This document shows positions 54,061 to 59,142 of a stretch of DNA of 64,000 nt, piece after piece. Source of the DNA: Pseudomonas asplenii. GTDB taxonomy: Bacteria; Pseudomonadota; Gammaproteobacteria; Pseudomonadales; Pseudomonadaceae. The stretch lies in assembly GCF_900105475.1 (NCBI RefSeq), contig NZ_LT629777.1, positions 1,178,001-1,242,000 on the forward strand, in the 5' to 3' direction. The position numbers were made by a program, and so were the translations under genes. Position 1 is the first letter of the stretch; each line of letters starts with the position of its first letter. The notes under the pieces are model-generated. The model did not search any database. It saw nothing but the letters and a program-made list of their open reading frames with translations, and was not told the origin of the DNA.

Positions 54061-54067
54061 TCAGCCC

Positions 54068-54700
54068 ATGAGCAGAGCATTCCTTCGGGCACTGGGCCTG
54101 GCCTCAACGCTCATCGCCCTGCCGGCGGTGGCCGAGGTCTACACCTACATCGACAGCCAGGGCAACCGGGTCTTTACCGACCAGCCCCATAAAGGTGCGA
54201 CCCGCGTACCACTGGCACCCAGCAACCGCATGTCGGCCAACCCCCACCGCCCGACAGCCAAGCCTGCCACCAGCCAGGCCCACACCGCCCCCATCTTCCA
54301 CTACCAGATGGTCCGCATCCTGGTACCCGATCCCGATGCCACGGTGCGCAGCGCCGAGGGTAATCTGATCGTCAGCGTCACCAGCGATCCCGGCCTGCAG
54401 ACCGGCCATGGCTATCGCCTGCTGCTGGACGGCAAACCCACCGGGGCCGCTGGCACCAGCCCGGTGTTCGCCCTGGAAAACATCGACCGTGGCACTCACC
54501 AGCTCGCCGTGGAAATCCTCGACGAACAAGGCCGCATCGCCGAACGCACCGCCAACCAGCCCTTCCACATGGTGCGCATGTCCCTCAGCCAGAAACGCCA
54601 GGCACAGCCCTGCCAAATTGCCGATTACGGCCAGCGCCCGGAATGTCCATTGGCGGACAAACCCGCAGAAGAAAAAAGCAGCCTCCTGCCCTTTCTGTAG
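54068..54700 (+). CDS. DUF4124 domain periplasmic protein (second copy)
   Basis: A 210-residue exported protein with signal peptide (to about residue 22) and the DUF4124 motif VYTYIDSQGNRVFTDQPHKG, a linker, then a C-terminal domain with GYRLLLDGKPTG and IDRGTHQLAVEILDEQG. The same layout as the preceding gene indicates tandem duplication. Both precede ntrB, and in PAO1 as I recall the same pair sits upstream of ntrBC. Confidence 0.87.
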   Translation: MSRAFLRALGLASTLIALPAVAEVYTYIDSQGNRVFTDQPHKGATRVPLAPSNRMSANPHRPTAKPATSQAHTAPIFHYQMVRILVPDPDATVRSAEGNLIVSVTSDPGLQTGHGYRLLLDGKPTGAAGTSPVFALENIDRGTHQLAVEILDEQGRIAERTANQPFHMVRMSLSQKRQAQPCQIADYGQRPECPLADKPAEEKSSLLPFL

Positions 54701-54946: not shown

Positions 54947-56032
54947 ATGACCATCAGCGACGCCCTGCACAGACTGTTACTCGACAACCTGACCACCGCA
55001 ACCATCCTGCTCAATGCCGAACTGCGCCTTGAGTACATGAACCCTGCGGCCGAAATGTTGCTCGCCATCAGCGGCCAGCGCAGCCATGGTCAGTTCATCA
55101 GCGAGTTGTTCACCGAATCGAGCGAAGCGCTGAACTCCCTGCGCCAGGCGGTCGAGCAGGCGCACCCGTTCACCAAGCGCGAAGCCATGCTGACCGCCCT
55201 GACCGGCAATACCCTGACCGTCGACTATGCCGTGACTCCGATCCTCAGCCAGGGCGAAACCCTGCTGCTGCTGGAAGTCCATCCCCGCGACCGGCTGCTG
55301 CGCATCACCAAGGAAGAGGCCCAGCTGTCCAAGCAGGAAACCACCAAGATGCTGGTGCGCGGCCTGGCCCACGAGATCAAGAACCCCCTCGGCGGGATTC
55401 GCGGCGCGGCCCAATTGCTGGCCCGCGAGTTGCCGGAAGAAAGCCTCAAGGACTACACCAACGTCATCATCGAGGAAGCCGACCGCCTGCGAAACCTGGT
55501 GGATCGCATGCTCGGCTCGAACAAGCTGCCCTCGCTGGCCATGACCAATGTCCACGAAGTGCTGGAACGGGTCAGCAGCCTGGTGGAAGCCGAGAGCCAG
55601 GGTTGCATCACGCTGGTGCGTGACTACGACCCGAGCATCCCCGACCTGCTGATCGACCGCGAACAGATGATCCAGGCCGTGCTCAATATCGTGCGCAACG
55701 CCATGCAGGCCATCAGCAGCCAGAACGAGCTGCGCCTGGGCCGCATCAGCCTGCGCACCCGGGCCATTCGCCAGTTCACCATCGGCCACATCCGCCACCG
55801 CCTGGTGACCAAGATCGAAATCATCGACAACGGCCCGGGCATTCCTGCCGAACTTCAGGAAACCATCTTCTATCCAATGGTCAGCGGTCGCCCCGACGGT
55901 ACCGGGCTAGGCCTGGCCATTACCCAGAACATCATCAGCCAGCATCAGGGCCTGATCGAGTGCGAAAGCCATCCTGGCCACACCACGTTTTCGATCTTCC
56001 TGCCCCTGGAACAAGGAGCCACATCGACATGA
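54947..56032 (+). CDS. ntrB: Nitrogen regulation sensor histidine kinase NtrB (GlnL)
   Basis: A 361-residue cytoplasmic histidine kinase/phosphatase that controls NtrC in response to PII. An N-terminal PAS domain (about residues 5-115), the phosphorylated His142 in GLAHEIKNPLGG, the N box NIVRNAMQA, and the G boxes DNGPGIP and DGTGLGLAI are visible. The ATG at 54947 has AAGAGG upstream. It overlaps ntrC by four bases. Confidence 0.96.
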   Translation: MTISDALHRLLLDNLTTATILLNAELRLEYMNPAAEMLLAISGQRSHGQFISELFTESSEALNSLRQAVEQAHPFTKREAMLTALTGNTLTVDYAVTPILSQGETLLLLEVHPRDRLLRITKEEAQLSKQETTKMLVRGLAHEIKNPLGGIRGAAQLLARELPEESLKDYTNVIIEEADRLRNLVDRMLGSNKLPSLAMTNVHEVLERVSSLVEAESQGCITLVRDYDPSIPDLLIDREQMIQAVLNIVRNAMQAISSQNELRLGRISLRTRAIRQFTIGHIRHRLVTKIEIIDNGPGIPAELQETIFYPMVSGRPDGTGLGLAITQNIISQHQGLIECESHPGHTTFSIFLPLEQGATST

Positions 56033-57465
56033 GCCGTAGTGAAACCGTGTGGATCGTCGATGACGACCGTTCTATCCGTTGGGTTCTGGAAAAAGCCTTG
56101 CAACAGGAAGGCATGACCACCCAGAGCTTCGACAGTGCCGATGGCGTGATGAGCCGCCTGGCCCGCCAGCAGCCGGACGTGATCATCTCCGACATCCGCA
56201 TGCCCGGTGCCAGTGGCCTGGACCTGCTGGCGCGAATTCGCGAGCAGCATCCGCGCCTGCCGGTGATCATCATGACCGCCCATTCCGACCTGGACAGCGC
56301 CGTGGCTTCGTACCAGGGCGGTGCCTTCGAATACCTGCCCAAACCGTTCGATGTCGACGAAGCGGTCTCGCTGGTCAAGCGCGCCAACCAGCATGCCCAG
56401 GAACAACAGGGCCTGGATACGCCGCCGACGCTGACCCGCACCCCGGAAATCATCGGTGAAGCGCCGGCGATGCAGGAAGTGTTTCGCGCCATCGGGCGCC
56501 TGAGCCACTCCAACATCACCGTACTGATCAACGGCGAGTCCGGTACCGGCAAGGAACTGGTCGCCCATGCCCTGCACCGTCACAGCCCACGGGCCACATC
56601 GCCATTCATTGCGCTGAACATGGCGGCGATTCCCAAGGACCTGATGGAGTCGGAACTGTTCGGCCATGAAAAAGGCGCCTTCACCGGCGCTGCCAATCTG
56701 CGCCGTGGACGCTTCGAACAGGCCGACGGCGGCACACTGTTCCTCGACGAGATCGGCGATATGCCGGCCGACACCCAGACCCGTCTGTTGCGGGTACTGG
56801 CGGACGGCGAATTCTATCGGGTCGGCGGTCATACGCCGGTCAAGGTCGACGTACGCATCATCGCCGCAACCCACCAGAACCTGGAAACCCTGGTGCACGC
56901 TGGCAAGTTCCGCGAAGACCTGTTCCACCGTCTGAACGTGATCCGTATCCACATCCCGCGGCTGTCGGATCGTCGCGAGGATATTCCGACCCTGGCCAAG
57001 CACTTCCTCGGACGGGCGGCGCAGGAACTGTCGGTGGAGCCCAAACTGCTGAAGACGGAAACCGAGGAATACCTGAAGAACCTGCCGTGGCCGGGCAACG
57101 TGCGTCAGTTGGAAAACACCTGCCGCTGGATCACCGTGATGGCTTCCGGTCGCGAAGTCCATATCAGCGACCTGCCGCCGGAACTGCTGAACCTGCCACA
57201 GGATTCGGCGCCGGTGACCAACTGGGAACAGGCCCTGCGCCAATGGGCGGACCAGGCCCTTGCCCGGGGCCAGTCGAGCCTGCTCGACAGCGCCGTGCCG
57301 AGCTTCGAGCGGATCATGATCGAGACCGCGCTCAAGCACACCGCCGGCCGCCGCCGCGACGCCGCCGTGCTGCTGGGCTGGGGCCGCAACACCTTGACCC
57401 GCAAGATCAAGGAGTTGGGCATGAAGGTCGATGGCGGGGATGACGACGACAGCGAAGAAGCCTGA
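56029..57465 (+). CDS. ntrC: Nitrogen regulation response regulator NtrC (GlnG)
   Basis: A 478-residue sigma-54 activator. Receiver domain with Asp55 (SDIRMPG), AAA+ domain with Walker A GESGTGKE (169-176), the sigma-54-contact GAFTGA (216-221) and Walker B GGTLFLDE (234-241), and a C-terminal Fis-type helix-turn-helix ending near GRNTLTRKIKELGM. It is expected to activate glnA and the repeat RNA downstream, both of which have RpoN promoters here. It ends with an acidic tail and a strong terminator. Confidence 0.97.
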   Translation: MSRSETVWIVDDDRSIRWVLEKALQQEGMTTQSFDSADGVMSRLARQQPDVIISDIRMPGASGLDLLARIREQHPRLPVIIMTAHSDLDSAVASYQGGAFEYLPKPFDVDEAVSLVKRANQHAQEQQGLDTPPTLTRTPEIIGEAPAMQEVFRAIGRLSHSNITVLINGESGTGKELVAHALHRHSPRATSPFIALNMAAIPKDLMESELFGHEKGAFTGAANLRRGRFEQADGGTLFLDEIGDMPADTQTRLLRVLADGEFYRVGGHTPVKVDVRIIAATHQNLETLVHAGKFREDLFHRLNVIRIHIPRLSDRREDIPTLAKHFLGRAAQELSVEPKLLKTETEEYLKNLPWPGNVRQLENTCRWITVMASGREVHISDLPPELLNLPQDSAPVTNWEQALRQWADQALARGQSSLLDSAVPSFERIMIETALKHTAGRRRDAAVLLGWGRNTLTRKIKELGMKVDGGDDDDSEEA

Positions 57466-57485
57466 GCCCTCGTCGCATCGAACAA

Positions 57486-57518
57486 AACCCTCTGCAGCCA
57501 GGCTGCAGAGGGTTTTTT
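57486..57518 (+). terminator. Intrinsic terminator of ntrBC
   Basis: AACCCTCTGCAGCC at 57486-57499 pairs with GGCTGCAGAGGGTT at 57501-57514, followed by T residues. It lies 20 bases after the ntrC stop and separates ntrBC from the downstream RNA gene. Confidence 0.92.
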
Positions 57519-57822
57519 ATTACCCAAGGGGAGCAGGTGCAAGGCTTGCAGGCCTCTTCGCGGGCAAGCCCGCTCCCACAGAAGCTGTGTCACACACACA
57601 TTCTGCCCACGGCACCGACCTTGAGCTGGCTTGCCAGCGATCCGCCGCAGGCGGCCATCCGGCAACGCACCATGACAATGCACCCCGACCCGCCATCGAG
57701 CAGCTCACACCGACTCGCCGCCTCCAGCCCTTTTTCCACTCAAAAGCGAAAAGTCCCGGATTTCGGGGCCTCCAGCCACTTCAGAAAAATTTCGCACACA
57801 ATCTTGAGTACTTTTCCAAAGC
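57519..57822. other. Region between ntrC terminator and sRNA promoter
   Basis: Holds a REP half-copy (GGCCTCTTCGCGGGCAAGCC near 57551) with the small palindrome GCGGGCAAGCCCGC. A GCACC-containing half-site at 57667-57671 could be part of an NtrC enhancer, but a full palindrome is missing. No gene is supported. Confidence 0.5.
57541..57580. repeat. Single REP copy
   Basis: GGCCTCTTCGCGGGCAAGCC with CGCTCCCACAG after it carries the same core as the repeats at 23196 and 43896. A 6-bp palindrome (GCGGGC, AA, GCCCGC) is at its centre. Confidence 0.6.
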
Positions 57823-57838
57823 TGGCACGTCCTCTGCA
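57823..57838 (+). promoter_or_regulatory. Sigma-54 promoter of the repeat RNA
   Basis: TGGCACG-TCCT-CTGCA differs from TGGCACG-N4-TTGCA at one base only. Transcription should start near 57850, just before the first repeat unit at 57858. Confidence 0.85.
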
Positions 57839-57849
57839 ATAGCTACTGT

Positions 57850-58238
57850 ACTACCCAGTTTTGGGGACCTTGGTACAGGCAGGCCGGGGATTCCCCTTCT
57901 TTACACTCGGGACTCATACCGCTCAGAGCGACGAGTCCTACAAGCTTTGGGGACCCCGGTACAGGCAGGCCGGGAATCCTCATCTTTAATCCGGGATTCA
58001 CTCCTCCCAGAGTGATCGATCCCAGCCGTTTTGGGGACCTTGGTACAGGCAGGCCGAGAATCCCTTCTTTACACCCGGGGCTCACACCGCTGTGAGCGAC
58101 GAGCCCCACCGTTTCGGGAACCCTGGTACAGGCAGGCCAGGGATTCCCTCTTTAACAGCCGGGATTCGCAGCGCCCAGCGCGACGCGTCCCGAACCGTTC
58201 AGGGAGCTTTGGTACAGGCAGGCCGGAGATTCCCTCTT
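57850..58238 (+). ncRNA. nrsZ: NrsZ-like nitrogen-regulated sRNA made of five structured repeats
   Basis: About 390 bases downstream of ntrC, behind an RpoN promoter, formed of five units of 83-86 bases. Each unit has hairpin A: a stem of about six pairs directly around the invariant loop UACAGGCAGG, enclosed by a GGGA-UCCC type outer stem. Between units lies hairpin B (for example GGACTC 57910-57915 with GAGTCC 57933-57938). Stems change sequence between units but keep pairing. Short UCUUUA segments between hairpins suit RNase E cleavage. As I remember, P. aeruginosa NrsZ is an NtrC/RpoN-dependent, processed RNA next to ntrC built of repeated stem-loops. This copy appears larger. The end is set by the opposing gene's stop. 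Confidence 0.82.
57858..58236 (+). repeat. Five-copy tandem repeat, 83-86 bp period
   Basis: The 14-base core GGTACAGGCAGGCC is identical at 57872-57885, 57958-57971, 58042-58055, 58125-58138 and 58211-58224. Steps are 86, 84, 83 and 86 bases. Flanking stem sequences diverge but remain complementary within each unit, so this is RNA structure rather than a simple satellite. Confidence 0.95.
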
Positions 58239-58688
58239 TTATTCCTCACGGAGATTGATCGCCAATCTCCAGCGCCCATCGACCTTGGCTCCGGCCCAAT
58301 TGCCCTGCAAGGGCCGTGCGGCCACCACCGTCAACAACACCCCCTTGTCGGTCAGGCGCAAGCGCCAGTTGGCGTCCTTGCCGGCAATCTTCAGGCGACC
58401 GCCCTGAGCCCCCTGGGCCTTGCCTTCGGTATCGAACAACAGCGCCACGGTGCCATCCACCTGTTCGCCATGCACCTTCGGCTCGCTGGTAAACCACACC
58501 ACCAAGCGATCGTCCGCCGCGTCGACCTGCTGCAACTGCGCCGGTTCGGGATTGGTCAGGCGGCCGATCATCAACCCCACCATCACCCCGAAAATCGCCA
58601 GGGACCCCATCACCCGCAGCATTAGCTTCGGCCGCGAGCCCTCTTCGGGGGTAGAATGCTGTCCATCTTCATCTTCGGAGCCGTGCAT
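58239..58688 (-). CDS. Hypothetical single-span membrane protein (PA5126-like)
   Basis: A 149-residue protein of unknown function. It has an acidic N terminus (GSEDEDGQHSTPEEGSR), one membrane span (about residues 25-43), and a periplasmic domain of about 105 residues with RLVVWFTSEPKVHGE and DANWRLRLTDKGV, probably beta-rich. Its start ATG shares the tetranucleotide CATG with the divergent trmL start, and its ribosome site is weak, so an internal start at Met23 is possible. Its 3' end abuts the end of the repeat RNA on the other strand. Confidence 0.75.
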   Translation of the reverse strand: MHGSEDEDGQHSTPEEGSRPKLMLRVMGSLAIFGVMVGLMIGRLTNPEPAQLQQVDAADDRLVVWFTSEPKVHGEQVDGTVALLFDTEGKAQGAQGGRLKIAGKDANWRLRLTDKGVLLTVVAARPLQGNWAGAKVDGRWRLAINLREE

Positions 58689-59142
58689 GTTTCACGTCAT
58701 CCTTTTCCAACCAGAAATTCCGCCGAATACCGGCAACGTTATCAGGCTATGCGCCAATAGCGGCTGCCATCTGCATTTGATCGAACCCATCGGGTTTGAA
58801 ATGGATGACAAGCGCCTGCGTCGGGCCGGCCTGGACTACCACGAATATGCCACGCTCAAGGTTCACCCGGACCTGGCCAGTTGCCTGGAAAGCCTCGGAC
58901 ACCCACGACTGTTCGCCTTCACCACCAAGGGCTCGCGGTTGTTCCACGATGCCCGCTTCGCCGAGGGCGACGCCTTTCTCTTCGGTCCGGAAAGCCGTGG
59001 CCTGCCTGCCGAAGTGCTCGACAGCCTGCCTGGCGATCAACGCCTGCGGCTGCCGATGCGCGAAGGCTGTCGCAGCCTGAACCTGTCCAATACCGTGGCC
59101 GTGGCGGTCTACGAGGGTTGGCGCCAACTGGGCTTTGCCTGA
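58687..59142 (+). CDS. trmL: tRNA (cytidine/uridine-2'-O-)-methyltransferase TrmL
   Basis: A 151-residue SPOUT methyltransferase that 2'-O-methylates the wobble base of leucine tRNAs. Knot motifs are FGPESRGLP near residues 99-107 and LNLSNTVAVAVYE near 127-139; the N terminus MFHVILFQPEIPPNTGNVIR is diagnostic. GGAG lies six bases before the ATG at 58687. The start overlaps that of the divergent gene. Confidence 0.95.
   Translation: MFHVILFQPEIPPNTGNVIRLCANSGCHLHLIEPIGFEMDDKRLRRAGLDYHEYATLKVHPDLASCLESLGHPRLFAFTTKGSRLFHDARFAEGDAFLFGPESRGLPAEVLDSLPGDQRLRLPMREGCRSLNLSNTVAVAVYEGWRQLGFA

Follow-up and report, generated by a model that had tools for sequence, protein, structure and literature searches.

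Within a 64,000-nucleotide stretch of Pseudomonas asplenii DNA (contig NZ_LT629777.1; hereafter the window), we observed the genes of a nitrogen two-component system followed by a tandem array of short repeats. The sensor kinase gene ntrB (54947–56032, + strand) encodes PAS, HisKA and HATPase_c domains and the sigma-54 activator gene ntrC (56029–57465, +) encodes Response_reg, Sigma54_activat and HTH_8 domains; both names rest on domains and position. This is in line with the initial annotation, which had placed the array downstream of ntrC. A gene for a DUF4124 protein lies upstream of ntrB (54062–54697, +). By eye, we found a probable intrinsic terminator of ntrBC (57488–57521, +), formed by CCCTCTGCAGCCAGGCTGCAGAGGG and a subsequent T run, for which a simple terminator scan returned no entry at these positions. 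A palindrome, GCGGGCAAGCCCGCTCCCACA (57560–57580, +), is located between ntrC and the array. It resembles REP elements and is the sole match to this sequence in the window at up to two mismatches. Two NtrC-like 17-mers set 20 bp apart, box 1 (CGCACCATGACAATGCA, 57666–57682, +) and box 2 (CGACCCGCCATCGAGCA, 57686–57702, +), precede a sigma-54 promoter of the form TGGCAC-N5-CTGCA (−24/−12; 57823–57838, +) with a predicted start at ~57850. On the other side of the array lies a convergent gene for a 149-aa protein with no Pfam match (58239–58688, − strand).

The array consists of direct repeats. Repeat comparison detected five copies at 57847–58240 with spacings of 86, 84, 83 and 86, and Tandem Repeats Finder reported a period of 84 with 4.5 copies. 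Five copies of one hairpin (A) alternate with four copies of a second (B), and a hairpin fold was predicted for 5/5 A units and 4/4 linkers, which corroborates the five-unit array with two alternating hairpins described at the outset. On the + strand, hairpin A occupies 57863–57896 in unit 1 (loop 57875–57882), 57948–57982 in unit 2 (loop 57961–57968), 58033–58065 in unit 3 (loop 58045–58052), 58116–58148 in unit 4 (loop 58128–58135) and 58201–58235 in unit 5 (loop 58214–58221), the last being also a predicted terminator stem. Hairpins B1 to B4 (57909–57939, 57993–58023, 58077–58107 and 58160–58192, all +) are supported by predicted folds and linker covariation. The five units lie where they had originally been placed, and a U-rich tail after the last unit, CTTTTATT (58236–58243, +), with the run of four U typical of last units, moves the 3′ end to ~58243. 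When compared to dinucleotide shuffles, the A units had folding z values of −1.1 to −3.3 and are not exceptional in folding energy by themselves; the B hairpins reached −2.5 to −2.9. The region 57850–58244 (395 nt) folds at −158 kcal/mol (z −2.47), and none of 100 shuffles was equally good. Stem and linker sequences vary from unit to unit. Over the 64 kb of the window, the + strand has the loop sequence ACAGGCAG at five positions and no others, namely 57875, 57961, 58045, 58128 and 58214. All five window units, and 80/80 distinct aligned A units, share one 10-nt loop region, UACAGGCAGG.

NrsZ is a known small RNA of Pseudomonas that is produced when nitrogen is short. Its Rfam model, RF02695, matched the window at 57852–58081 with 146.6 bits and at 58105–58297 with 91.4 bits, against a gathering score of 76.9 bits; an overlapping placement on the array scored 128.6 bits. 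The model itself contains three hairpin-A modules, so that two placements are required to span the five-module array. Elsewhere in the 6.53-Mb genome RF02695 gave two matches only (E 1.6 and 6.4), and a covariance model of a single unit, searched genome-wide with an E cut-off of 0.01, gave five matches, all in the array. The array is NrsZ in a five-module form. The initial annotation had named NrsZ of P. aeruginosa as the likely relative, with more modules here than in known NrsZ; both parts are borne out, with five hairpin-A modules compared to three in RF02695. The PAO1 study of Wenner et al. 2014 reportedly names three similar short modules in its abstract. We do not take module number as family-defining, since the genomes sampled in the genus have between 1 and 8.

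Compensatory change between the units had been put forward as strong evidence for RNA structure. In the five inner A stems of the window, scored against the commonest pair, two pairs vary through UG, CG and UA, three are invariant, and both bases are replaced in just one pair, which in unit 5 goes from CG to UA. With a single two-sided pair, the five units alone make a weaker argument than claimed, and the case rests on homologues. The A stems had also been described as paired throughout; all five fold, but units 2 and 3 have a C-A mismatch in place of the outermost quoted pair. To cover homologues, we made a gapless MAFFT alignment of 80 distinct A units from the window and 30 genus loci, the latter being the best-scoring Rfam matches and hence no random sample. 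Over a 12-pair structure, 96.0% of the cells were paired compared to 93.1% after shuffling, and there were 33 two-sided cells compared to 2.8 expected, values that none of 500 shuffles reached. Two-sided changes affected five pairs compared to 2.0 (3/500 shuffles), and every slid register scored lower on all measures. The pair at columns 12/33 is unpaired in 26/80 sequences, window units 2 and 3 included. The set for hairpin B held 24 linkers, namely the window's four and 20 of near relatives (42 nt) picked from 35 distinct 42-nt linkers. Here 93.2% of the cells were paired and five pairs carried two-sided changes, compared to 1.4 after shuffling (0/500). The covariation check on homologues, as proposed in the initial annotation, came out positive for both hairpins (score 0.265 vs 0.194 shuffled for A and 0.152 vs 0.111 for B, 0/500 shuffles each), with the reservation that shuffles overstate significance because the aligned sequences are related, and that kinship alone can let sequences beat shuffles without any structure. 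The number of further pair types is an unconvincing measure for A (16 vs 14.7, reached by 112/500 shuffles) as well as for B (12 vs 10.0, reached by 30/500). A set of 137 distinct linkers (23–46 nt), taken from 53 arrays, had a median folding z of −2.7, with 131 below −1 and 104 below −2. Hairpin A thus retains its loop sequence; in hairpin B, it is the pairing that persists through changes of sequence and length. The B hairpins may simply serve as spacers.

We next compared the surroundings of 81 arrays, 75 of which are distinct (six array sequences occur twice). A sigma-54 element, TGG[CT]A[CT]-N5/6-TGC, is present upstream of the first unit in 81/81, so the RpoN promoter claimed initially for the window (57823–57838) is upheld and recurs throughout. 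Tandem 17-mers like the window's boxes recur upstream of relatives' NrsZ. Using a box pattern that was defined only after viewing the alignment, at least one NtrC-like box was found in 54/81 arrays compared to 2.2 in Markov shuffles, and at least two in 33/81 compared to 0.04. The 27 arrays lacking the pattern comprise 23 single-unit, two three-unit and two seven-unit arrays. The convergent 149-aa gene adjoins NrsZ in relatives as well, being found beside 66 of the 81 arrays, 22 of which were fetched via that gene. At nine single-unit loci (L046–L054), the downstream gene is kept and ntrC was not found within ~3.5 kb upstream; these loci may have NrsZ apart from ntrC.

The two kinds of unit differ at their 3′ ends. 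Hairpin A is followed by four consecutive U in 52/53 last units and 28/28 single units, compared to 8/171 internal units (48/49, 26/26 and 8/152 when only distinct arrays are counted). This distribution suggests that the last copy doubles as terminator. From the sequence pattern, we take the final copy to be a putative intrinsic terminator, and the internal copies to be apparently prevented from acting as terminators. A simple terminator scan, with a threshold of five or more T within eight bases, listed no site in 57400–58700. In the parts of published NrsZ accounts available to us, we found no description of this U-run pattern.

NrsZ has been characterised in P. aeruginosa, as far as the partial literature covered shows. 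Reviews, consulted in excerpt, place it under the control of NtrBC with RpoN and describe an RNA of ~226 nt that is processed to ~40- and 140-nt species. They further report that the first 60 nt are functional, that the motif ACAGGCAG is conserved, and that rhlA is activated via an apparent interaction with the rhlA 5′ leader. A passage of an eLife paper likewise locates NrsZ downstream of ntrBC. In an excerpt of an Hfq cross-linking paper, NrsZ is among the Hfq-associated sRNAs, with an enrichment that is higher in planktonic cells, though not significantly. The window's array shares with NrsZ of P. aeruginosa PAO1 the position downstream of ntrC, the sigma-54 promoter and the hairpin modules with ACAGGCAG loops, and differs in having five modules over ~395 nt, compared to ~226 nt in the excerpted accounts of PAO1 and three hairpin A in the Rfam model.

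The anatomy of the window fits the P. aeruginosa scheme, with five modules. Sequence comparison shows the structure with its near-invariant loop, the promoter, the pattern of the terminator and the variation in copy number. NtrC binding, processing, base-pairing, targets and dose are what we infer for the window strain, as follows. Under nitrogen limitation, phosphorylated NtrC at the tandem boxes (~57666–57702) would activate sigma-54 polymerase at 57823–57838. A transcript of ~395 nt would run through the five A hairpins and stop at the fifth, which would act as an intrinsic terminator by virtue of its U-tract. Cleavage in the single-stranded, U-rich linkers beside the B hairpins might then release several near-equivalent short RNAs, each displaying the ACAGGCAG loop for base-pairing with target mRNAs. 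More modules would in this way yield more active RNA per transcript. Taken as a whole, a five-module NrsZ that is transcribed by NtrC and sigma-54, terminated at the fifth module, processed, active through base-pairing loops and dosed by its modules is the likely explanation of the locus.

To determine how module number varies, we searched Pseudomonas genomes with the single-unit covariance model, a search along the lines suggested in the initial annotation, which located NrsZ in 291/298 sampled genomes of the genus. Four of the seven genomes without a match are less than 90% complete, and the other three are split into ~80, 270 and 1200 contigs. The 291 genomes carry 1 to 8 units. Apart from the window's, 79 have one unit, 53 two, 117 three, 29 four, six five, one six, four seven and one eight. 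Five units are thus found in 7/291 genomes and at least five in 13/291, the window's included in both counts, with more than five in six; a five-module form is uncommon in the sampled genus and not unique. In the family sample, 118/148 genomes and 15/19 genera had matches. In the order sample 8/115 genomes matched, and the four of these outside the family were rejected as weak (E 7e-5 to 1.6e-3), with the exact loop absent from the fetched loci. No blastn match to NrsZ was obtained in phage and plasmid records, nor any match to one exact NrsZ pattern in viral contigs. One genome from another genus of the family (G310) has NrsZ units on two contigs, C1 and C8, a possible second locus. Given how widespread NrsZ is, its principal target probably has a more general role than rhlA.

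Module number changes at least 19 times on a tree of 66 rows, a quick tree built from the downstream gene and part of ntrC (downstream gene only in 12 rows) in which 18/59 inner branches are open. All 16 rows of the window's clade, which include P. fuscovaginae, P. gingeri, P. batumici and four identical pairs, have four to eight units. Window units 1–4 are closest to units 1–4 of P. fuscovaginae, in the same order (likeness 0.86–0.94), whereas the window units resemble one another at 0.85 at most, which indicates that the window's array is old. In 25 distinct arrays of at least four units, the nearest relative lies within the same array for 32/82 inner units, compared to 2/25 first units. Several arrays contain near-identical units, some alternating with a period of two, which suggests that blocks of one and of two units were recently duplicated in those arrays.

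Such turnover might also be neutral. Slippage could add modules with no effect on dose, one module being enough, and this would be compatible with the explanation preferred above on everything but dose. The frequent copy-number changes on the 66-row tree, the near-identical adjacent units of several arrays and the single unit of 79/290 other genomes are in its favor. However, only one changed loop was detected in 257 units, and the diverged units of the window's clade retain pairing and loop, which suggests selection on each copy. We regard neutral slippage as rather unlikely. That copy number may tune dose, as the initial annotation had remarked, is a hypothesis. It leads to a more specific proposal, which we advance tentatively as a possibility: module number may be an evolvable gain control of sRNA dose per transcription event, with loop, promoter and terminator fixed and the last module serving as terminator. 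If so, the strength of the nitrogen-starvation response would be set by an often-changing number of modules between 1 and 8. The combination of a near-invariant loop with variable module number provides a natural series for asking whether modules set dose. Tandem or multi-copy sRNAs such as PrrF1/PrrF2 resemble NrsZ in that an equivalent effector is present more than once, but the NrsZ modules share a single predicted promoter and a single predicted transcript. The NrsZ family is already known, and its copy-number spread may be new; the 1-to-8 range, the proposed use of the last module as terminator and the rarity of changed loops are possibly new to specialists. No title on NrsZ module number was found in the literature searched, which was covered by titles, abstracts and excerpts, and NrsZ by name was found in no title or abstract there, which does not imply absence from print.

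The loop is the most constant part of the unit. The single-unit model identified 257 units in 83 fetched loci, and the alignments show the exact ACAGGCAG loop in 256 of them; the model was trained on exact loops, so badly decayed units may be missed in this count. The one changed loop, CCAGGCAG, belongs to the fourth and last unit of one array (L105). To look for targets, we searched for the 10-nt complement of the loop region, CCTGCCTGTA. The window's own genome has 17 sites, five of which are NrsZ itself, and ten relatives have 87 sites outside recognised NrsZ positions. Among the 99 sites compared there are 98 real candidates, the other (L124) being the own NrsZ of genome G003. Singletons account for 62/99, and the remainder fall into nine groups common to two to eight genomes. 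Checks of two members per group showed the site to encode Cys-Leu-Tyr inside a long open reading frame in eight groups; in the ninth it encodes Cys-Leu followed by a stop, where a gene ends. Genes named by eye at these groups are gltB, nadB, nuoN and a nirB-like gene. None of the nine groups shared among the 11 genomes places a conserved loop complement near a start codon. An excess over control speaks against a purely coding reading of these sites: the 10-mer complement was commoner than a reversed control in 11/11 genomes (for instance 17 vs 4 in G000 and 19 vs 1 in G217), and an excess was also seen for the 8-mer complement followed by ATG (93 vs 30, 90 vs 10 and 68 vs 32). NrsZ itself and codon usage can account for part of this excess. 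Shared 8-mer-ATG sites, judged by eye among the matches listed for the window's genome and for at least part of G005, were apparently coding or antisense to a coding start. Two genes identified by eye, which would be nitrogen genes, contain the complement, namely gltB in 8/11 genomes (G000:C1:1140666-1140675 and relatives) and the nirB-like gene in 3/11; both probably reflect codon usage at Cys-Leu-Tyr. In the window's genome, one 10-nt complement (L098) falls within a transporter-like gene, ~20 nt past its start.

The repeated loops could alternatively titrate an RNA-binding protein, as CsrB/RsmZ or CrcZ do, instead of base-pairing with mRNAs. One invariant loop in many copies per transcript is the usual layout of a sponge, and it would go with the outcome of the target search, in which no conserved mRNA target was found near a start codon. 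CsrB/RsmZ and CrcZ are, like NrsZ, repeated units in one activator-controlled transcript. RsmA sponges expose GGA in several of their hairpin loops, and Hfq/Crc sponges carry a CA motif, AANAANAA, in repeated form. In the window's RNA, 12/12 GGA sites are at least partly in predicted stems and 0/12 are fully unpaired in the predicted folds, and we therefore rejected an RsmA sponge. A CrcZ-type Hfq/Crc sponge was rejected as well, since AANAANAA does not occur within 57850–58244; a four-fold ARN run is also absent from this region. Single-module versions are common in NrsZ, unlike in these systems, with one unit in 79/290 other genomes. The apparent interaction with the rhlA leader, reported in a review, also speaks against titration. 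Sponging of a protein other than RsmA or Hfq/Crc may occur, but overall we consider titration improbable.

The stems and linkers differ between units, as would be expected if the modules had different targets and the array were a polycistronic set of distinct sRNAs. Against this stands the fact that UACAGGCAGG does not vary among the five units or among the 80 distinct aligned ones, which makes such a set very improbable. Another kind of repeat, dispersed REP/BIME elements or a coding repeat, was suggested by short GC-rich tandem hairpins between genes and by the REP-like element at 57560–57580 and can be dismissed with near certainty, because the five unit-model matches genome-wide (E up to 0.01) all lie in the array with no dispersed copies, and because spacings of 86, 84, 83 and 86 break the reading frame, so that the repeated peptide changes frame from unit to unit. 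Finally, in 64/75 distinct arrays the first hairpin A is immediately preceded by the hexamer CAGTTT.
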